Source of the DNA: Elmis aenea
Taxonomy: Eukaryota; Arthropoda; Insecta; Coleoptera; Elmidae
NCBI GenBank assembly: GCA_947652605.1
Contig: OX393583.1
Coordinates: forward strand, 11,077,222-11,141,221
Reading direction: 5' to 3'
DNA length: 64,000 bases
The notes beneath the pieces are model-generated. The model saw only the letters and a list, made by a program, of their open reading frames with translations. It did no database searches and was not told the DNA's origin. A program made the translations under genes and the position numbers. This document shows positions 13,641-42,887 of this stretch, piece after piece (within the stretch, counting starts at the first letter, position 1; every line of letters begins with the position of its first letter).

Positions 13641-14391
13641 GGACTCATGACTAATTAAAATTAATCAGATTTTATAAACATTTATTAATTAAATTCATTC
13701 ATGAAACAGTACCTACACTTTTTTGGCTGGGGGGAATCTGACACCCCTAACCCCCTGCTACGTCAATGCCTGGCAGAACAATATCTGAGTCGCCTAGATG
13801 CAAACTCAGTTATATCCATTTTGGGTGCAAATTAAACTGACAGTGCCATCTTGTAGAGAATTGTATTCTCTGTGAATATAGACATACCCTGACATTCAAA
13901 ACCGACTAAAACATGTGCTCCACACCGTTTAAATGCAAAGGTCCAATGCAAAACCGGGCAATTCCTATTTTACATAGTAGCAGAAACGACTACATCAATA
14001 TCGATGCAAAATCGGTTATATCCAATGGCAAAATTTATCTTTAGCTACAAATACGGTTAAATCCATTTTCATAGGTTTTACGAATTATTTTAAGCTTAAA
14101 ACAAGTTCGAGTTGTTGTGTACAAGCACGTGTTTGAAAGAAGATGGATCCAGAGCGATTTGTAAGTTTAAAGTTCCCAAAGGAAAGCCCGTTCTAAAGCC
14201 TTCTTTGTACTTCTAAAGGAAGAGAGGAAAGATTTACTCACCATTTCGTCACAAAAATTTAGTGCTCCCAAAAATACCTGACCAAATTACATATTATAAG
14301 TGTCAATATTATATTTACAATTTTTACGGTTGTTGTGGGATCGTCAAAAAGCAAATTGTCTCCCCAAAATGTTTTCATCTACACTTGGTTT

Positions 14392-16107
14392 CCACAACGA
14401 ATGGGCCAGAACTGACCAAGAAAAAGCTGATGTATTTGCCCAATACTTTGAACAAGTTTTCACTCCTCATGCAAACAATCCAGATGCCGAAATAGACAGT
14501 TTTCTAGACATACCATTGCAAATGAGTCTGCCAATTAAAAATCTTACATACTCTGAAGTAAAAACCGAAATTAAACACCTTAATAAAAAAAAAGCCCCGG
14601 GGTATGATCTAATAAATGAGAGAATACTGTCCGAGCTACCTACGACGGGGATCCAGTACTTAAGAATAATATACAACTCCATAATAAGAACAAAGTACTG
14701 GCCCTGCCAACTGAAGTTTGCACAAATAGTACTGATACCAAAACCAGGCAAACCCCAGCAAGAAGTTACCTCATACCGACCAATCAGCTTGCTCCCACTG
14801 ATATCAAAAATTTTGGAAAAGCTTATTTTAAAAAGAATGAATAATGATGATATTCCTGAGGAAATTCTTCCTAATCACCAGTTTGGGTTCAGAAGGCACC
14901 ACTCCACCATCCAACAATGCCAACGAATTGTTACAATAATTAATCAATCATTCGATTCGAAGGAATACTGTCCTGCAGTTTACTTAGACATCCAACACGC
15001 TTTTGACAAAGTATGGCATAAAGGTCTTCTCTACAAAATCAAAACACACATGCCAAGTGAATATTACTTACTTTTAAAGTCCTACCTCTCCGGGCGATAC
15101 TTCCAAATTAAGTATGGCAACGAATACTCCGAAATCTGCCCCATCAAATCTGGAGTACCACAGGGAAGTGTCCTTGGGCCCTTACTATACACATTATACA
15201 CTTCAGACATACCAACTACACCAAACACCTACTTAGGGACATTTGCAGATGATACAGTGATTTTAAGTCGACATAAAGACCCAGACATAGCCGCCTCAAG
15301 ATTACAAATGCACGTCGACCTACTACAAAAGTGGCTTAGTAAATGGAGAATCAAAGTTAACGAAACGAAAAGTACACATGTTACACATACCTTAAAACGC
15401 TCCGAATGTCCATCAATACAACTAAATAACATACAAATACCAAGAGCAAACGAAGCTAGATATTTAGGACTCTCGATAATAAATTAACGTGGAAACAACA
15501 CATAAACAAAAAAAGGAAAGAAATGGACTTAAAAATAAAGAAAATGTATTGGCTCTTTGGAAAAAGATCATCACTATCACTGGAAAACAAAATCCTACTG
15601 TACAAAGCAGTAATCAAACCAGTATGGACTTACGGGATAGAGTTATGGGGATGCTCAAGTAAGTCGAATGTAAAAATCATACAACGATTCCAAGCCAAAA
15701 CGTTGAGATTAATAACAGGAGCTCCATGGTATGTAACCAATATCACACTACATACAGACCTAAACATACCATTCATAGAAGACGAACGTAGAAGAAGAGC
15801 CGAGAAAAACTACGACAGACTACAAAGCCATCCCAACGAACTAGCCTCAGACCTCACCCAGGTGGTAAAATCGGGACGCCTCAAAAGAATATGGCCAAAT
15901 GAACTAAAACAATAATAAGTTTCCAGTGGGATGACATCGATGTGGGATGACATCGATGGATTGACTACCCCTCATGACAAGATACGCCAACACATTAGCT
16001 TATAGGACTATCTTTTGTGTATATAAATACATGTAAAGGTTCTGATTGCTAATATGCATTAAATTATTAAAAAAAAAAAAAAAAAAAAAAAAATCTACAC
16101 TTGGTTT
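14392..16107 (+). mobile_element. Jockey-type LINE, 5' truncated, with 15-bp TSD and poly(A)
   Basis: It is flanked by identical 15-mers ATCTACACTTGGTTT (14377-14391 and 16093-16107). It ends in a poly(A) run at about 16069-16092 just before the second copy, the signature of target-primed reverse transcription. It inserted into the transposase-like region of the DNA transposon at 13787-17130 and is younger than that element. Confidence 0.92.
14393..15914 (+). pseudogene. Jockey-clade reverse transcriptase, one frameshift
   Basis: It covers almost the whole RT domain. KKAPGYDLINERIL comes first, then SYRPISLLPLISKILEK, FGFRRHHSTIQQ, AVYLDIQHAFDKVWH (first catalytic Asp), SGVPQGSVLGPLLY and the intact FADDTVI catalytic box (about 15240-15260). 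The thumb and C-terminal segment follows in a shifted frame (VWTYGIELWGCSSKSN, VTNITLHTDLNIPF, stop at about 15912). The frame changes near 15475-15485. The endonuclease and ORF1 regions are missing by 5' truncation. GIELWGC and the short C-terminus are typical of Jockey-clade elements of insects. Confidence 0.88.
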
Positions 16108-20142: not shown

Positions 20143-21295
20143 AATAATAATAATAATAATAATAGGCTTTATTTAGTTATAAAAGAAACTATTTATACAT
20201 CAATCTTTACAACTAGTACTTCAAATTAAAATTGCAGTTTTACATGGGTCTTACAACCTTCTTTAAACGCATGCAGATTAACAGAATATTTTAATTCGTT
20301 TGGTAATTGATTAAATAATAATTTTAGCCCTTTGTAATAGAGCGAGTTCTGTGTATTATTTTTTTTACATTTAGGCAGTCTAAAATGTTCTCTTTGTCTT
20401 GTTTCATAATCATGCTGTTCTTTGTTGTATATCAGATATTTACTCATATATCCTGGCATCATATTGTTTATACATTTATATATTAGAACCAAAACGTTAT
20501 ACACTGTATTTTGCCATATATTAAGGAACCCCAACTTATTATGCATATTTTCAATTTTAGTTAATTTAGAACACTGTAATATGATACGCAAAGCTCTGTT
20601 TTGCTGCTTTTGTAATTTTTTTAGATCCCCCTCATTACTTAGAAATATTATGCTACTGCAATAATTAAAGTATGGTTCTATTATTGTATGATAGACCAAT
20701 ATCCTAGCTTCAAAGTTTAATTTATTCGATATTCTCCCAAAATAACTAATTTTTGAACCAACTTTTTTTACAATATAATCTATGTTCTTTTTAAATTTTA
20801 GATGATTATCTATAATTACCCCTAGGTATTTAAACTCTTCAACTATCTCTACTTTATTATTATCTATAAATACGTTAACATTTGACATATTGCTGAATTG
20901 TGTACTACCTATTACCATGCATTTTGTTTTAGATACATTCAACTCCAGTTTATTAGCTTTAAACCAATCTGTTACTTCAATTAAATCTTCGTTTATGACA
21001 TTAACTGTTGTTTGTAAATCTTCACCTGATACCGAAATTAACGTATCATCTGCAAATAAATGCATGTCACACGATTTAACTGTCTGCGTAATGTCATTTA
21101 TGTAAATATTGAATAAAACTGGACCTAAAACTGATCCTTGTGGTACACCTAACTCGTTAATAATTACCTTTGATTCTACTTTTCCCACCCTGGTTTTTTG
21201 AAATCTGTTTGATAAATAACTTTCAAACCATTTTAGTTCATTCCCTTGGATTCCGTACATTTGTAATTTTTGCAAAAGTCTTTTTCTACAGATTC
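20143..21295 (-). mobile_element. LINE 3' fragment ending in an (ATT)n tail
   Basis: It is 5' truncated, with its ORF at 20226-21275. On the minus strand its 3' end is a (TTA)n microsatellite (20143-20163), so the tail is a simple repeat and not poly(A). A second, more decayed fragment of the same type is at 46295-46860 in the other orientation. Confidence 0.8.
20226..21275 (-). CDS. Non-LTR reverse transcriptase C-terminal part (349 codons, uninterrupted)
   Basis: This minus-strand frame is open throughout. It contains the RT palm blocks GVPQGSVLGPVLFNIYINDI and LFADDTLI (catalytic Asp pair), then FKANKLELNVSKTKCMV and EFKYLGVIIDNHLKF. A thumb and C-terminal region follows with NYCSSI, QNRALRIILQCSK and the terminal SLYYKGLKLLFNQLP...F segment. 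It lacks the fingers, endonuclease and ORF1, so it cannot act alone. It is unusually intact for this region and probably a recent insertion. The clade is probably CR1/Jockey-like by C-terminus and microsatellite tail; I am not certain. Confidence 0.85.
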   Translation of the reverse strand: MQKLQMYGIQGNELKWFESYLSNRFQKTRVGKVESKVIINELGVPQGSVLGPVLFNIYINDITQTVKSCDMHLFADDTLISVSGEDLQTTVNVINEDLIEVTDWFKANKLELNVSKTKCMVIGSTQFSNMSNVNVFIDNNKVEIVEEFKYLGVIIDNHLKFKKNIDYIVKKVGSKISYFGRISNKLNFEARILVYHTIIEPYFNYCSSIIFLSNEGDLKKLQKQQNRALRIILQCSKLTKIENMHNKLGFLNIWQNTVYNVLVLIYKCINNMMPGYMSKYLIYNKEQHDYETRQREHFRLPKCKKNNTQNSLYYKGLKLLFNQLPNELKYSVNLHAFKEGCKTHVKLQF

Positions 21296-23960: not shown

Positions 23961-24228
23961 TGGACACACTAATGTAGGGTGAATAATGAATAAATTAGTT
24001 GTAAAAAGGAAAAATAAAAGTAGTTTCTTAAAAAAAATCAAAGATACCAAAAATTCGTGATTTTTTTTATTTTTATAATTTAAATATTTAAATCAAAAAT
24101 TTTTAATTTTTTTAAATAAAAATCAAATTTTGCCCAACCCTGTTGGAGATTCATATTTTAATCACTAATGGAGCATATTATTTCAGACATAAAATAAACC
24201 AACTTTAATTCTTTTCTGTATTTTCCAG

Positions 24229-26116
24229 AACTTTCCACTGAAACGTGTCGTTCCACCGATGGGAGCTCGATACCTTGCATATCACTGTACGAATGCCCTG
24301 CGATCCTCCGAGCCATAGGCACATTAAACGAAACAGCAGTGGAAAGCATCCGCCACCTATACTGCGGATCGTACAACATGTACGGCGACCCCTTAGTGTG
24401 CTGCGAAATGGACAACATCTTAAACAAAAGAATCGAAGAAACCGAGAGCGCGGCCAACATCTCCTCAAAAATCACATCAAGCGAAACATCGCCGAATTTC
24501 TTAAAGAAAATCGTCATAAAAATAACCAAACCGAAATACACCAAACAGACGATCATTTCCCAAGTCAACGGCCCGAATCCGACCGGATACATAGAGATAC
24601 ACGAGCACGTACCGACGTACAAACAGCACACCACGATCAACGAAATGACGCCGGAAGTCACAAGGGACATCTCCATACACGAATCCGCGGACAACCTCGT
24701 CAGAAAAACCGTCATCAACGAAACGCTCAAAAATTTCAGGGATGTTCTTCGACGACCACCACCACCGCTGGCTTATTTACCACCAGACGCACCGCGCATA
24801 CTGGATCAAAACGGCAAAATCGGTAGTTCGAAGCGAACTCAAGAAGGTACAATTAGGAACATAATAGACGGTTACAAAGCCATACAACCCCGATCGCCCT
24901 TCGATCTTCCACTAACCAACAAAGATGACGAGGATTCAGAAGGTCCAAATTTGTCCACGCGACTGCTAGCTAATGATACAGAACTCGACGATGCCATATT
25001 TCAAACATTCCTCAACGACACGCAAGAAGAGGAAAGTGACGAGGATACAACCACGGAAATTACGCCATCAGTTTTCAAACTGCTGCCTCTTGGATTTTCA
25101 ACAAGTGGCAACGAAGAGATCAATAACGTGTCGGTGGCTTATTCAACAACAGAACCAGAGCAAAACATTGCTGCTAACAGCTCTAGCGAGGAACTCTCAA
25201 GCGTTAAACCAAAAAAAGAACCAACGATTAATTTAGTAATAGAGAATAATAACGAAGAAGATATTGTAGAAGATTCTTCAGACGTTAGAAACACAAGTGA
25301 TATCAATATTTCTTCCAGCTTCGCCCCTCTATCTCTACAAATAGAGAATAATAACGAAAAAGAAATCATAAAAGATTCTTCAGACGTCAGAAACACAAGT
25401 GATATCAGTATTTCTTCCGGCTTCTCCCCGCCATCTCTACAAATAGAAAATAATAACAAAGAAGAAATCGCAACGGATTCGTTAGATATCAGAAACACAA
25501 GTAATATCAGTATTTCTTCCAGCTTCTTCCCGCTATCTCTACAAAAAGAGAATAATAACGAAGAAGAAATCGAAAAAGATTCTTCAGACGTCAGAAAAAC
25601 AAGTGATATCAGTATTTCTTCCAGCTTCTCCCCGCTATATCTACAACTAGAGAATAATAACAAAGAAGAAATCGTAAAAGATTCTTCAGACATCAGAAAC
25701 ACAAGTAATATCAGTATTTCTTCCAGCTTTTTCCCGCTATCTCTACAAATTAATGAAGAATTAGGAGTTCTTCAAGATTCTTCGGAACAATTCGGCAAGT
25801 TTTCATCCACAACTGAATCTCCATTACCCAATGAAACATTAGCCAACAACAGTATTACAAGTATCACGAGACCAACTTCGAAGTGGGTTTTAAAGAAAGA
25901 TCTGTTTCCAAGTAGGAAAATTTGCGGTTTGCAATATTTCGATGACGTGTATTATAAGGAAAAAGTTTCTTCGCCGCTACATTTTCCGTGGTTGGTGCTC
26001 ATAACGAATAGTACAAGAAACGATAGTTCCCGGTTTTTAGGGGAAGGTGCGATTATAACCCAAAGATATGTTCTGACTTCGGCGTCTGTTGTGGATAACA
26101 GCACTGATGTAAATGA
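24229..26116 (+). CDS. CLIP-domain serine protease homologue (SPH), exon with CLIP domain and repeat linker
   Basis: This is the first visible exon of a four-exon gene (24229-26116, 28489-28682, 28744-28853, 30694-31002). It opens after a TATTTTCCAG acceptor and ends at GA|GTAAGT, phase 2. It starts with a CLIP domain showing six Cys in the pattern C(RSTDGSSIP)C(ISLYE)C ... C(GSYNMYGDPLV)CC. After a charged linker come five 34-residue repeats (25239-25748). The beginning of a chymotrypsin-like domain follows (KICGLQYF, PWLVLI, RYVLTSASVV). In active proteases the last motif reads TAAHC, so the catalytic His is replaced by Ser. CLIP-SPHs are secreted haemolymph cofactors of prophenoloxidase and Toll-pathway cascades; that role is family knowledge, not shown here. 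A signal-peptide exon must lie upstream and was not found. Confidence 0.85.
25239..25748 (+). repeat. Five 102-bp coding tandem repeats in the SPH linker
   Basis: There are five units of 34 residues, each beginning (I/K/L)ENNN(E/K) and continuing E(I/D)...DSSD(V/I)R(N/K)TS(D/N)I.ISSSF.P..LQ. They are acidic and Ser-rich, so likely disordered and possibly glycosylated. Units 3-5 are the most alike, which suggests recent expansion by unequal exchange. They sit between the CLIP domain and the protease-like domain. Confidence 0.95.
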
Positions 26117-26464
26117 GTAAGTACATTTCCTATTCAAAATTAATAAGATTTTAATGATGTTACTAGTACCTGTAAGTAGAAAACATAATACAAACAAATT
26201 AATTGTCTTGAACAACATTAACATTAAGGATTATTTGATGTCTTGAATAAGTATAATTATGCAAAATTGTAAATTAATTCAATATATCAATTTTAGTGTA
26301 CAAATTAAAACTGGTAACATGTATTAGGTATTACTGTCATATTCTGCCATATACAGGCTGTCCCAGATTACATTTCCAGCATGGATCTCGCTTATTATAA
26401 GAGATAGAGGTTTGTTTAAATTAGATGAATTATTCCTTAGTATGAAAGGAGCCACAATCTATTT

Positions 26465-36504: not shown

Positions 36505-37053
36505 ATGGAGCACGATCAAGAACAATGGAATGCGGCCAGTTTTACTGAATTTTTTAACACCATCGAACAAATTACTACAAGTATAAAAAATAAAGCTCTA
36601 ATAGGACGAACATTAGCACATTCTAATGAAAAAATAGTGGAAGCATTTGCAGCAGTCGATAAAGAAATGGCAAAGGTAGAGATGGAATTACGTTGCATGG
36701 ATCCATCTTGTTCTAGGAGCGGATCTGTTGAGAAAAAAAAATCTATTAAAGAAAAATCTACAACGGAGATGAAACTACACGACAGGGAACCATCTAGTTC
36801 TAGGACTGGATTTGTTGACAGAATAAAATCTGTTAAGAAAATGCCTACAAAAGGAATGGAATTACGCGACACGGAACCATCTTGTTCTAAAAGTGGTACT
36901 GATGGAGGTGGAAGAAAACCTATTAAAAATAAGCCTACAACACGGATGCAATTAAGTGGCATACAATCATCCTGTTTTAGGAATGTATCTATTAAAATAA
37001 CAAAATCTACTGAAGAAACCCCAGAAACACCGACAGCAACGTTGCAGCCTAAA
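36505..37053 (+). CDS. Exon 1 of the nuclease-NACHT-ankyrin gene
   Basis: It begins with ATG at 36505 and encodes 183 residues in phase 0 before a GTTAGT donor at 37054. The frame itself would only continue to a stop at 37074. The first 60 residues are mixed and probably helical. They are followed by about four 29-30-residue tandem repeats (36682-37000) of the form M(E/K/Q)L(R/H)..(E/D)PS(C/S)S(R/K)(S/T)G, each with a basic lysine-rich half. The repeats look like a flexible, positively charged linker; I know no named domain for them. The link to exon 2 rests on matching phases, a good acceptor there and the lack of an upstream ATG in exon 2. The +3 T in the donor is somewhat unusual. Confidence 0.65.
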
Positions 37054-37525
37054 GTTAGTATAATACTTGTTTAATAAAATATATTTCGCTTAAGATTCGC
37101 AAGCATTTTTATTATTATACTTTAAACATAATCATTGGTTGAATTTAGAAAAATTAATATGCACCTTGGCAATAAAGTTCGACTTTTTATCACTCGTGTG
37201 GTGATTTGCCTCGCTTCGTCTCGACAAATAATATCCTAACTCGTGTTAAAAAGTCGAACTTTACTGCCTTGAGCCTTGGTACATAAATAACTATTAATAA
37301 TTTGAAAGCATTGCAAAAAGTGGGTTTGAAATTATAGAAAATTGGTTACCTTTAAAAAGATATAGCTTATCGTTATTAATTTTGAGAAGAAAATTATATA
37401 TGTTTTAGTTGACTTTTGTGTCTTGTTTATTAACCCCAATCTAAAAATCAGTAAATACAAATTTTTTCCATAGCGGAAAAATGTTGGTTAAATAGTAGAA
37501 TGGAGGCTTTCACGGCCGTTGTCTG

Positions 37526-38771
37526 ATGAGTGGGTGGTTTTCGGGTTGTGCCGTGTGGAATTATTAATGCTTGACGTTTCGTCGTCCATGCTGACGACTT
37601 CTTCAGAAGGGGTCTGACTGCTGTTGTCGTGATTTGCTCCGCGTTATATAGCGATGGGTCGCTACGCTCGGTTGCGTCTTGTCTCGGGTCGGTGATCGTG
37701 GATCGTCGCGCTTGGTTTGTTCTTTAGAGCCAGTTGGATCTGGGTTGTCGTTCTGTGGCTTCTTGTGTAAAGCTAACCGCCAGGTGTTGCTCAATTGGTA
37801 GCCATCTTCTCGATTAAAGTTGTTAGGGTTTTTCATAATCTCGATGGACTCCCTGATGACTCTTTGATAGTAGAAGTCGTTTCTAGCCAATATTTGCACG
37901 TTGTTGTAGTCTATTGCATGGTCTATTGCATGGTCTGCTGGTTGCAGTACATGTTCTGCTACCGCCGATCTGGTTATGTGGCCAAGTCTGCAATCTCTTT
38001 GATGTTCTTTGACTCTGCTTGCGATGCTTCTGCCTGTTTGGCCGATGTAGCTTTTTCCGCAGTTGCATTGAAGTTGATATATGCCTTTCACTTGTAGTTT
38101 GGGTAGCGTGTCTTTGTTGGACGGGAGCGCTTGTTCGATTTTCTTGTTTGTGTTGAAGCGCATGCCGATGTTCTTTTTTGCCAGTAGTCGCTTAATTCTG
38201 TCGGTGACGCCTGCGATGTAAGGCAGACAGGCATATTTGGTGAATTCTTGTTTGTCGGTTTTGTTGTGGTGCTTGGTGGCTTGTCTTATATCTTTCGAGC
38301 TGTAACCATTCTTCATTAAGGCTTTTCGTACATGTTGTACTTCGTCTTGTTTGCTGGATTCGTCACAAATTTTGTCCGCTCGGTGTAGGAGTGTCTTGAT
38401 TAGGGACCGTTTTTGTTGAGGGTGGTGGTGAGATGTAGAATGCAGATATCTATCCGTGTGTGTTTTCTTCCGGTATATTGTGTGTGTGTTAGTGTGTTGT
38501 TGGTGCGTTTTACTAATACGTCTAAGAAGGGTAGGCTACCGTTCTCTTCTATTTCCATGGTAAATCTGATTTGTGGTTGGCGTTCCTTTAGATGGGTGAG
38601 GAATTCTTCGAGAGCAGTTCTTCCATGGGGCCATATGGCGAAGGTGTCGTCAACATATCGAAACCAACATTTCGGTTTCTTGTCACTGGATTCAATGGCT
38701 TCTTCTTCGAGCGTAGCGACCCATCGTCATTAATAATTCCACACGGCACAACCCGAAAACCATCCACTCAT
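37526..38771 (-). mobile_element. Penelope-like element, truncated, with inverted terminal repeats
   Basis: It lies in the NACHT gene intron in antisense orientation. A 44-bp repeat at 37526-37569 is inverted at 38728-38771 (shared string GGTTTTCGGGTTGTGCCGTG). Such inverted terminal segments are typical of Penelope-like elements, which have no conventional LTR or poly(A). Between them lie the end of the RT and the GIY-YIG endonuclease. Most of the RT is missing. Confidence 0.85.
37603..38718 (-). CDS. Penelope-like RT C-terminus plus GIY-YIG endonuclease (5' truncated)
   Basis: The minus-strand frame is open from about 38718 to a stop at 37603-37605. It starts with the RT catalytic box CWFRYVDDTFAIWPHG, followed by the conserved FTMEIEENGSLPFLDVLV block and a thumb region. 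The GIY-YIG nuclease module comes next, with GIYQLQCNCGKSYIGQTGRS, the R in IASRVKEHQRD, and H, E and N positions downstream (AVAEHVL, LARNDFYYQRVIRESIEI). The GIY-YIG domain nicks target DNA to prime reverse transcription. The methionine at 38316 is not a real start; the protein is continuous with the RT. No frameshift was seen in this segment. Confidence 0.88.
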
Positions 38772-38867
38772 GTTGGTTAAATGTTGCTCTTTTGCAACGT
38801 TGGTCTTTAATGGGTTAAAAGCATTCCCAATTTTGTAAAATTGTACTCAATAAAAAACATTTTTTAG

Positions 38868-41800
38868 AAATATACAAGAGACCCTGAAACGTCAGATGTT
38901 GGCCGAGAGTTCGAAAGTAAATTGCCAGCCTACATGGCATTGCAGCTACTTGAGGACAAGAATCTGATGAACTATGAAATGGGCGTCAATATGGCAGGTT
39001 GTGGGTCATTCGACGATCTCGTCATATCGACGAAGTTTCATGGTGGGCACAACAGAACGTTTATGCTGCAGCTAAAGCATCAAGTTAAAAGTAAACCCGT
39101 AAGTTTTAACGAATTTTGTGCACAAAAGGGGGACTTTAGCTTGGCGAAATATTTCGGGGGTTTTCAGGAAGTGTTGAACACATTAGACAGTGACAAGCAA
39201 AATAAAATAAGGGACTTTATAGGAAATATTAATAATATCCATTTAATACTATTTACTAACAAACCTGTCAATAGTAAATTATCTTTTTTAGGAAAAAATG
39301 AAAACCCTATTTTATTAGCTCTAAGGACAACTAGTTATACTATCTATAGTATAGATTATGAACAGTTTATTAAAGAATATAAAGGTATTCATGATTTTGT
39401 TTCGCCACTATCAACTATTCAAGAATTTGATAAAAAGTTAGATCGATCAAAAAATCTGTTAAAATATGAACACCATCAATATTTAACTCATTTACGATCA
39501 GTGTACAAAAATGACTATCAAAGTCTACCTACAAATATTAAAATAATGTTAGAATGTTTCCAAAATCAAAGTTTTGGCGCTTTTCTAAACAAATTAACTT
39601 TATTTTGTGGCCAGTGTGATCAAACTGCACTTGATCGACTTGTTAGCAATAAACTAGAAAATTTTTGCTCTGATGCACATAACTTGACAACAATAACAAA
39701 GATTTATTTTAATTTTATAAATAGTTGCGTGAAAGCTTCTAATCCGTACACCATCACAAAATCTTTAATATTAAATAACCTAAGTGAATTATTATTAGAT
39801 CCATTTATTAACAAATATTATTCAACCGCGTATGAATATCATAAAATTGTTGAAACAGGATCATGGCATGACATTGTTCAATCTCAGATGATCACTTTAG
39901 TTGAAACCGATAATGTAATTGATAGTTTTGTTAGCACGTATGTGCTTGATAAAATTAATAAGATATGTAATATAGATACAAGTACCATTGATTATATTAA
40001 AAGTTGGACAACTAACCTTACGTCTGATGATAAAAATAAAATTATGAGTAATTTAAAGGGATCAGGATTAGATATTGAAATTCATAGATTAGTGGGTCCC
40101 GCCGGTAACATTACGTTGTTGGATATTTTTAAGGGTATGTGGCTAGTAGGGAAAATACCTTTAGTGTTACGCGCTAATAACCTCGGAAAATATAAGACAA
40201 TATTACACGTGCTACAAAAAACTGAATGTAAATTAGGAGTTATAATTTTAGTAAATAAGGTTGTCGATGATTTGCAACTGGATGGAAATTTAAACGTATT
40301 TTATAAGTTATCAGGTTTAAAAGAAGATTTGAAAACAAACATATTGAGGGAAAGTGTTCAGTTTCAGGGAAAAATAATACAATTGGAACAAATATTCAAT
40401 ATTGAACAATTGGAAGATAAAGAAAATATTACATTGCAGGGAAAATTAACACATTTGATTACAATACCTTTTATTAAAGGGTTGGCAGATAAACTTTTAC
40501 TAAAAGATATAATTTATATTTTGGTTGGTAAATTTTTTATGGGAAATGAATTAAACAAGTTGCTTCCTTCTTACATACCACAAACTTTATCTAAAATAAT
40601 AATTCATCCTGAGGCACTAAGTAAATGTAAAAACGATATATTTGTAGTTATTGTTAAAAACAAAAATATCTTTAAAGAATGTTTAAAAAAATATAATATT
40701 GAATTGAAAAACTTAGATTTTGTTGACTATACCACTAATAGTAATTTTAAAGGTATAATTTTTAATTATTGCAATATAATTTTAACACAGTCCAACTGTT
40801 TCCAATCAATTTTGAATATATGTCCAAAAAAGAGCATTCATGCGTTGCATTTGGATGAAAATGAAAAGATTTTTGAATTGATTAAAACAGAACGTGGTAT
40901 CAATAATATTAGGAAGTACAGAACAAATTCTAATACTAGTATTTCTTCAATTAATTTAATTGATAATCTGAATGATAAACTCTGTATTATTAGTGCAGGT
41001 CCAGGGATGGGAAAATCCACTTTAATGGATTATATAGCTCACAAAATACCATCAGATACTTGGGTGTTAAACGTAGATTTGAAATTTTACTTAGATTATT
41101 ACTGCAGTAACGAATTTAAAGCAAATCATTTAAAGCCATCTCAACATTTAATACATTTTAGTAAATCCATCATTGCTAATAATTCATGTGATACACAAAT
41201 TAATGAATTAATATTTAATTATTTGTTGGATCATAATCGTGTTTTTATTATTTTCGATGGCTTTGACGAAATTGCGACAACGTATGAAACGGAGGTGACT
41301 GATATGATCAGGTCTTTGTATGATAGTAATAATTATAAGATGATTCTTACTACTAGACCGGTAATGCAGGCACATGTTGAGGATAAGTTTCAAACTTTAA
41401 GTATTCCATTAAATCCGTTTAGTAAAGATGATCAAATTACGTTTTTGAATAAGTATTTTTTGCTTGGTCTTAATAATTTGCTATGTAATTATCGTGAGCG
41501 AGTGGAACAGTTTGTTAATAAATTATTAGATTTGACTGAACAAAATTTAAGCGATTGGGATAACGAATTTACTGGCGTACCATTACAATGTAGACTATTA
41601 GCGGACGTCTTTATTAAAAATTGTGAATGTTATGTACAAACGAAAAAATTTAATTTGAACGAAAGTTTCGATTTGCTATATTTGTATGAAAGATTTGTTC
41701 GCGCAAAATTAAAAATATTAAAATCCAAATTTGGACATTACAATAAAGAGATTAATATAACAATTAGTGAGTATCAAACGTTATACGCACTAAAACTCAT

Positions 41801-42887
41801 ATTTCCGAGTGACTTAATAACAGAACTAGACGTTGAAACACAATTGTCACACTTTAATGACGTACTTAAAAATTTATCTCAACTTGTTCAGAAGGACGGA
41901 CTCGTAGTAATTAGTACCGACTTTAATATAAATTTCGTACACAGGACGTTTGCAGAGTATTTTACGGCCAGGTGGCTTAGTGTGAATTATCAAGAAGGTC
42001 TTCGGTATAGAAATGTCGCCCTCAAGTTGATTGAAGAAATATTAAAACCCAACTACAATGTTGTTCGTAATATTTTTGACACAACTTTGGCAAAAAACAA
42101 ACAATTACATATTGCCATAGTCAAAAGACAAATTAATCAGGTTAGATCAATGATAAAATCGCTCCCTGATATTGTTAATGACGTTGATGAGGGCGGGAGA
42201 TCGCCTTTGCATTTGGCAGCTTCATGGGGTGTTAGACATCCCATGCCAGAGGAGGGGAAAGAAATGGATAAATATAAACATGCATTAAATAATATTAACA
42301 TTAACTATGTTATGGAAGATATTGTTGAACTTTTGTTATCTAATGGTGCCTCATACTTTGAAGACAATTTGTTAAATTATTATCCTTTAGATTACGCTTT
42401 TAAAACAAATTCGATTAGAGGTGCTTACATAATTACAATTAAACATATTCATAAAACCACTATTGATGTAAAAAATTTAAATATATATTTAAATTATTAC
42501 ATGTATTATGGTAACGATAAATTCATAATATTTATATTAAATAATTTAGTAAGCCATAAACACTCTGAAACATTTAAACAATATATAAGTATAAAATTTT
42601 GCGGTTTCACTGCATTACATCAAGCGTGCGGATATGAACATACAGATCTAGCTAAATTGTTGTTAAATTGTGGAGTAGACGTAAACATCAGAAATCGTTT
42701 TAAGGAAGCACCTTTACACACTGCATCTGAATTTGGTAAATTGTCCCTAGTTAAGCTTTTAGTCGATCATGGAGCTGATATTTATATCGAGGATGAAGAC
42801 GGTGAGACAGCGTTAGATTTTGCTAAAAAAAAAAAATGCCAAGATGTTTATAAATATCTAAGGCCATTATACCATAAAAGTGAATAA
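38868..42887 (+). CDS. Nuclease-like / NACHT / ankyrin STAND protein, exon 2 (1,339 codons)
   Basis: It follows an ACATTTTTTAG acceptor and is phase 0, giving a spliced protein of about 1,522 residues. Residue numbers assume exon 1 at 36505-37053. Residues about 197-255 form a PD-(D/E)XK-like motif: E197/E199, FDDLV with D233, and MLQLKH with Q251-x-K253. A long middle region has no recognised domain. The NTPase has Walker A GPGMGKST (894-901), Walker B VFIIFDGFDE (975-984) and the sensor-like ILTTRP, which is NACHT/STAND type. FVHRTFAEYFTARWL (from about 1206) is the conserved helical segment after the NTPase. Ankyrin repeats occupy about 1290-1515 (GRSPLHLAASWG, GFTALHQACGYEHTDLAKLL, APLHTASEFGKLSLVKLLVD). 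STAND proteins are ligand-triggered switches, often in defence; a sensor role for the ankyrins and an effector role for the nuclease are inferences. The reading frame is intact. Confidence 0.88.
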   Translation, partial: KYTRDPETSDVGREFESKLPAYMALQLLEDKNLMNYEMGVNMAGCGSFDDLVISTKFHGGHNRTFMLQLKHQVKSKPVSFNEFCAQKGDFSLAKYFGGFQEVLNTLDSDKQNKIRDFIGNINNIHLILFTNKPVNSKLSFLGKNENPILLALRTTSYTIYSIDYEQFIKEYKGIHDFVSPLSTIQEFDKKLDRSKNLLKYEHHQYLTHLRSVYKNDYQSLPTNIKIMLECFQNQSFGAFLNKLTLFCGQCDQTALDRLVSNKLENFCSDAHNLTTITKIYFNFINSCVKASNPYTITKSLILNNLSELLLDPFINKYYSTAYEYHKIVETGSWHDIVQSQMITLVETDNVIDSFVSTYVLDKINKICNIDTSTIDYIKSWTTNLTSDDKNKIMSNLKGSGLDIEIHRLVGPAGNITLLDIFKGMWLVGKIPLVLRANNLGKYKTILHVLQKTECKLGVIILVNKVVDDLQLDGNLNVFYKLSGLKEDLKTNILRESVQFQGKIIQLEQIFNIEQLEDKENITLQGKLTHLITIPFIKGLADKLLLKDIIYILVGKFFMGNELNKLLPSYIPQTLSKIIIHPEALSKCKNDIFVVIVKNKNIFKECLKKYNIELKNLDFVDYTTNSNFKGIIFNYCNIILTQSNCFQSILNICPKKSIHALHLDENEKIFELIKTERGINNIRKYRTNSNTSISSINLIDNLNDKLCIISAGPGMGKSTLMDYIAHKIPSDTWVLNVDLKFYLDYYCSNEFKANHLKPSQHLIHFSKSIIANNSCDTQINELIFNYLLDHNRVFIIFDGFDEIATTYETEVTDMIRSLYDSNNYKMILTTRPVMQAHVEDKFQTLSIPLNPFSKDDQITFLNKYFLLGLNNLLCNYRERVEQFVNKLLDLTEQNLSDWDNEFTGVPLQCRLLADVFIKNCECYVQTKKFNLNESFDLLYLYERFVRAKLKILKSKFGHYNKEINITISEYQTLYALKLIFPSDLITELDVETQLSHFNDVLKNLSQLVQKDGLVVISTDFNINFVHRTFAEYFTARWLSVNYQEGLRYRNVALKLIEEILKPNYNVVRNIFDTTLAKNKQLHIAIVKRQINQVRSMIKSLPDIVNDVDEGGRSPLHLAASWGVRHPMPEEGKEMDKYKHALNNININYVMEDIVELLLSNGASYFEDNLLNYYPLDYAFKTNSIRGAYIITIKHIHKTTIDVKNLNIYLNYYMYYGNDKFIIFILNNLVSHKHSETFKQYISIKFCGFTALHQACGYEHTDLAKLLLNCGVDVNIRNRFKEAPLHTASEFGKLSLVKLLVDHGADIYIEDEDGETALDFAKKKKCQDVYKYLRPLYHKSE

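Follow-up and report, generated by a model that had tools for sequence, protein, structure and literature searches.

A candidate NLR-like gene family in the beetle Elmis aenea that joins a predicted Cap4-type nuclease to NACHT and ankyrin domains

The locus and its gene model

The window analyzed here, a 64,000-nucleotide stretch of Elmis aenea DNA taken as a whole, belongs to a 34-Mb contig, the assembly totalling 516 Mb. It contains a two-exon gene (36505–42887, + strand) encoding a protein of 1522 aa. Exon 1 (36505–37053, +) supplies a 183-aa leader and is followed by a donor GT at 37054. After a phase 0 intron (37054–38867, +), exon 2 (38868–42887, +) begins behind an AG acceptor and forms one ORF without internal stop (1339 aa plus stop codon). 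Residues are numbered below within exon 2; the addition of 183 gives the numbering of the initial annotation, so that E14, E16, D50, Q68, and K70 correspond to its E197, E199, D233, Q251, and K253.

Five regions follow one another along exon 2, all on the + strand. The predicted Cap4/DUF4297-type PD-(D/E)XK nuclease domain (38868–39392, residues 1–175) carries E16, D49/D50, Q68, and K70, and is followed by a middle region (39393–40958, residues 176–697) that is mostly helical in a low-confidence model. The NACHT STAND NTPase (40959–41477, residues ~698–870) contains the Walker A motif GPGMGKST, the Walker B motif VFIIFDGFDE, and LTTRP. A post-NACHT region (41478–42092, residues 871–1075) with FVHRTFAEYF leads to the ankyrin region (42093–42884, residues 1076–1339), whose last three repeats (~1241–1335) are hypervariable. 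The Walker A, Walker B, FVHRTFAEYF, and nuclease motifs quoted in the initial annotation are thus all present in the ORF, and its claim of a NACHT domain with C-terminal ankyrins was confirmed by Pfam: PF05729 covers residues 706–864 (E 5.7e-12, 46.2 bits versus a curated cut-off of 26.7) and Ank_2 is matched at E 3e-29. GPGMGKST and FDGFDE are invariant in all 8 copies aligned. Residues 1–697 gave no Pfam match at E ≤ 10, and this includes the whole ~520-aa middle region. As the nuclease and NACHT parts share exon 2, no splice lies between them, and the gene model agrees with the proposed joining of the N-terminal segment to the NACHT part. The exon-1 leader contains an 87-bp (29-aa) tandem repeat in 2.2 copies; no known domain was found in it, nor did BLASTP match it to the 87 NACHT homologues described below.

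The intron houses a minus-strand insertion resembling a retroelement (~37500–38780, −). With a GIY-YIG-like stretch, KGIYQLQCNCGKSYIGQTGR, and a reverse transcriptase-like YVDD motif, it has the look of a Penelope-like element; its ORF at 37603–38535 has no Pfam match at 1e-3. A short intron element at ~37149–37298 matches at least 28 other places genome-wide at ~85–88%, many of them on both strands, and is probably a palindromic miniature transposon. Elsewhere in the window lie two reverse transcriptase ORFs (14300–15487, +, RVT_1 E 1.3e-40; 20226–21293, −, RVT_1 E 2.6e-21). A long ORF at 24198–26120 (+) has a Pfam match to a CLIP domain close to its beginning (E 1.6e-4) and several internal repeats of ~34 aa in its middle, while its end, without a Pfam match, looks trypsin-like to us. 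It is perhaps a CLIP-type serine protease, or a homologue of one, with an unusual repeat insert; CLIP-type serine proteases are a class used in insect immunity.

The predicted nuclease domain

The D-(x17)-QxK signature that the initial annotation read as nuclease-type found support in residue conservation, predicted fold, and profile comparison. In the 11 copies from the same genome, which were gathered by exon-1 DNA with the motif playing no part in selection, E16, D49, D50, Q68, and K70 are invariant. An alignment of 49 sequences retains Q68 in 49, D50 in 48, and K70 in 48, counts that are favored by the motif filter with which 33 of its 41 homologous proteins were chosen. Among 22 homologues chosen by BLASTP similarity alone, with no motif filter, 20 keep all of D, Q, and K; of the 42 alignable homologues altogether, 40 do so, D or K being lost in P0084 and P0034. 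We take D50, Q68, and K70 to be the residues contacting metal and phosphate. Three of the five residues named earlier (D233, Q251, and K253) are therefore conserved and E199 (E16) is largely so, being glutamate in 37 and glutamine in 7 of the 49 sequences, whereas E197 (E14) is E in 2 of 49 and is not conserved.

The structure prediction proposed in the initial annotation yielded a nuclease-type core. In the AlphaFold2 model (m46c314156c9f, pTM 0.63), helices at residues 11–28 and 92–107 and strands at 33–40, 51–57, 62–70, and 124–130 are arranged in the predicted alpha-beta-beta-beta-alpha-beta layout of the PD-(D/E)XK restriction-nuclease topology. The best Foldseek match of this model in the PDB is bacterial Avs3, with moderate Foldseek and VIA scores, and K70 aligns with the lysine replaced by alanine in the Cap4 entry 7yia (titled K74A).

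The window's own nuclease segment has no significant match in Pfam or PADLOC, and a profile of the own copies has none in the PDB; HHalign with the 11 own copies alone against the comparison profile, built from ten Cap4 nuclease regions from plasmids, scored 24.2 (6.7%). At the level of the family, 29 arthropod N-termini aligned with the Cap4 regions at 96.1% and E 3.1e-9 (single template), in register over the G, E/Q, FDD, QxK, and TN-strand elements. When the script was rerun the score was 61.1, compared with a maximum of 20.2 over 200 column shuffles and with 9.7 when the profile was reversed, and it was 62.1 without the four own copies. The set chosen by BLASTP alone scored 51.1 (94.0%, E 1.5e-7) versus at most 19.9 in 200 shuffles. 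Among the 29 members, the PADLOC profiles LmuA and SAVED_PDDEXK match 5 and 4, respectively. Taken together, sequence comparison and modeling support the view that the N-terminal segment is a real domain, predicted to resemble the anti-phage nucleases of Cap4, LmuA, and Avs3.

The gene family and its ankyrin variation

A search of the genome with exon-1 DNA returned at least 79 matches from 40 scored candidates, many of which are a short dispersed intron repeat. At least 12 distinct exon-1 places were counted, the window included, and a full-length exon 2 lies downstream at 11 of these 12 (a lower bound). Ten of the 11 full-length copies are open and the remaining one has a single in-frame stop. 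The window copy shares 65–68% identity with the nine further open copies, and the majority of copies lie on one contig, C4. An AG acceptor occurs at the equivalent place in all 10 open copies; a GT donor could be placed behind the shared short stretch for the window gene and 5 more copies, with no call at 6 further loci. The leader varies in length, with exon-1 ORFs, read to the first stop, of 173–505 aa (six copies resolved; L009, L012, L014, L016, and L017 were noted). One exon-1 copy, L010/L023 (C8:8712684), is an orphan with no exon 2 within ~19 kb downstream.

Outside Elmis, a query consisting of the NACHT and post-NACHT regions only retrieved 87 homologous proteins from insects, springtails, isopods, and Daphnia, along with metagenome records. 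The best is from the click beetle Ignelater (E 1.5e-76); others come from Bacillus rossius, Periplaneta, Zootermopsis, Blattella, Onthophagus, Orchesella, several Daphnia, Aedes albopictus, Lutzomyia, Armadillidium, and Chironomus. The architecture that had been described as that of a single insect gene is real, but the gene is not alone: the NACHT-only search places it in a family of insects, springtails, and crustaceans. When the 87 homologues were compared with a profile of the N-terminal domain, 44 matched at E < 1e-3, and in every one of the 44 the match lies upstream of NACHT. Since the N-terminus played no part in choosing the 87, this recurrence is independent evidence that the domain and NACHT form a stable unit. 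Nuclease and NACHT distances also correlate (Spearman 0.65, 0 of 2000 permutations, 40 proteins), perhaps owing in part to the clustering of the same taxa in both.

In the five proteins scanned out of the 43 homologues without a nuclease match, other domains precede NACHT: Lipase_3 in P0012, P0015, and P0020, a protein kinase in P0022, and a Death domain in P0056. Further homologues lacking the nuclease may be partial sequences. Such N-terminal modularity is typical of NLR-like proteins, and the presence of these domains in the nuclease position hints at an NLR-like repertoire in which effectors are swapped.

Pooled pN/pS over 10 copies is 0.40 in residues 1–175, 0.28 in NACHT, and 0.72 in residues 1076–1240, and reaches 1.34 in residues 1241–1335 (bootstrap 0.97–1.86). 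For residues 1241–1331 it is 2.24 in the nine C4 copies, at least 1.30 when any single copy is dropped, and 1.28 with one copy per close pair. Seventeen putative contact positions of the last three repeats, the equivalents of those randomized in designed ankyrin proteins, average 5.3 residue types as against 1.8 at the 72 other positions (0 of 20000 permutations). As pN/pS, calculated here from few synonymous changes, is also raised at framework positions (1.09 for all ten copies and 1.85 for the nine on C4), the effect at contact positions lies in the amount of change and not in the ratio alone. Amino-acid variation in the ankyrins is accordingly concentrated at the presumed ligand-contact positions. 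Synonymous divergence among the 10 open copies is ~0.92 over the nuclease but about five-fold lower, 0.16, over the ankyrins, which suggests exchange or gene conversion between copies focused on the 3′ half. Fungal NLRs are described as showing the same pattern, the contact residues of repeats associated with NACHT being under positive selection (PMC4986451; PMC1805685).

Proposed mechanism and relation to known systems

The reading that we favor, and hold to be somewhat more likely than not, is that the gene encodes an arthropod NLR-like receptor with its own effector, in which ankyrins would do the sensing, NACHT would act as a switch, and paired nucleases would cut DNA. The C-terminal ankyrin surface, which evolves fast and takes its own form in every one of the ten open copies, may bind a protein derived from a pathogen or parasite. 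Binding would drive the NACHT NTPase out of its closed state into an open one loaded with ATP, whereupon the protein would oligomerize and bring the N-terminal Cap4-type domains together as active dimers. These dimers would cut double-stranded DNA, either viral or the cell's own, the latter leading to cell death. The present analysis shows the domain content, the predicted fold, the conserved catalytic residues, the gene family, and the surplus of amino-acid changes at ankyrin contact positions; the class of ligand, oligomerization, activation of the nuclease, DNA as its substrate, and a defensive purpose are proposed on that basis. In Avs3, according to the part of the report available, a STAND ATPase gathers N-terminal nucleases once a phage protein is recognized (PMC12198126). 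The window protein has matching parts in matching order, its ankyrins being the presumed sensor, which by analogy suggests the same logic here, and it is in this sense that we infer the self-contained sensor–effector role put forward in the initial annotation.

The N-terminal domain might instead keep the nuclease fold while acting as a module for nucleic-acid binding or oligomerization, with signaling through other proteins and no DNA cutting. The greater variation of D49 and E16 relative to D50, Q68, and K70, and the loss of D or K in the two homologues noted above, would fit such a module; D50, Q68, and K70 nevertheless rank with the best conserved positions of the domain, also in the homologues chosen without the motif filter, and we regard this explanation as unlikely. 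Equally unlikely, in our estimation, is that the family acts in conflicts within the genome or in reproduction (mobile elements, meiotic drive, or allorecognition) and not in defense against microbes. The concentration of copies on C4 and the diversity of their ankyrins would suit such a role, as would the fungal NLRs with hypervariable repeats that act in allorecognition (PMC1805685 and PMC4986451, so far as the accessible text goes); the nearest nucleases, however, are largely anti-phage.

That the gene arose by exchange with phage WO of Wolbachia, or serves specifically as a sensor or target of Wolbachia, appears still less probable. A phage WO NACHT protein does nest among arthropod homologues in the available part of one study (PMC5062602). 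Against 50,697 phage records, however, tblastn with the window protein placed the best matches listed in the post-NACHT and ankyrin regions only, with no nuclease (15 of 15 records listed), and the Aedes homologue gave the same result (12 of 17 records listed); the intron, the 34-Mb contig, and homologues from Daphnia to cockroaches likewise speak against it. That an unrelated domain has merely by chance produced a nuclease-like motif is highly improbable, for although Pfam and PADLOC are silent on the window segment and the PDB on the own-copy profile, the fold prediction, the profile–profile score with its shuffles, and the relatives' PADLOC matches all agree.

Insects are usually described as lacking NLRs. 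If the receptor reading is true, this widespread family, whose NACHT is intact, whose repeats evolve fast, and which carries a nuclease of anti-phage type, would be an overlooked branch of arthropod innate immunity, giving a direct structural bridge from bacterial to animal immunity and possibly a self-contained sensor of viruses or microbes in animals often thought to be without such receptors. Our judgment is evenly balanced on the broader proposal of an animal counterpart of Avs, that is, a large and ancient arthropod family in which hypervariable ankyrins would trigger a Cap4-type nuclease through NACHT, providing insects and crustaceans with DNA-destroying NLR-like immunity outside the classic insect pathways.

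Among known systems, Avs3 and Avs4 (AVAST) likewise place an N-terminal effector nuclease on a STAND NTPase. The sensor of Avs is TPR-type. The window gene differs in being an animal gene with an intron, in its NACHT assignment by Pfam, in a ~520-aa middle region with no Pfam match, and in ending in ankyrins, no TPR family being among the 12 Pfam families found. The whole protein matched no PADLOC Avs model, and at E ≤ 1 just two models matched, both within the ankyrins. Because a whole-protein Avs match and a TPR sensor are both absent, we describe the protein as Avs-like in logic but not as a member of Avs. With Cap4 (CBASS) and LmuA (Lamassu) it shares the nuclease signature (G..F/Y-E/Q, FDD, QxK, and the TN strand) in register, but here NACHT and ankyrins follow the nuclease in one polypeptide, and the absence of SAVED among the Pfam families found sets it apart from CBASS Cap4. 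The tripartite layout of animal NLRs (effector, NOD, and repeats) is present; Pfam found ankyrins and no LRR family in the window protein, for which reason we call it NLR-like and not a classic NLR.

HEPN domains are RNase-type and all-helical, with no relation to the PD-(D/E)XK fold. In the portion available of PMC3710099, CXorf38-type HEPN–NACHT animal proteins provide a precedent for joining a nuclease-type domain to NACHT. Fungal NLRs (PNP_UDP/NACHT/ANK; HET-E/HET-D) resemble the window protein in combining NACHT with repeats and in positive selection at contact sites, as the accessible parts of PMC4986451 and PMC1805685 describe them, but they carry other N-terminal effectors in place of the Cap4-type nuclease. 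In the open-licence literature searched, we found no report of the nuclease–NACHT–ankyrin combination. The nearest account is that of Bordenstein and Bordenstein (2016, PMC5062602), who noted arthropod NACHT–ankyrin proteins beside phage WO and whose NACHT homologues span insects and crustaceans, Daphnia among them. Judged from the available part of that article, theirs is probably the same animal family; the proteins are described there with NACHT, ankyrin, and latrotoxin domains, and that text holds no word starting with 'nuclease'.
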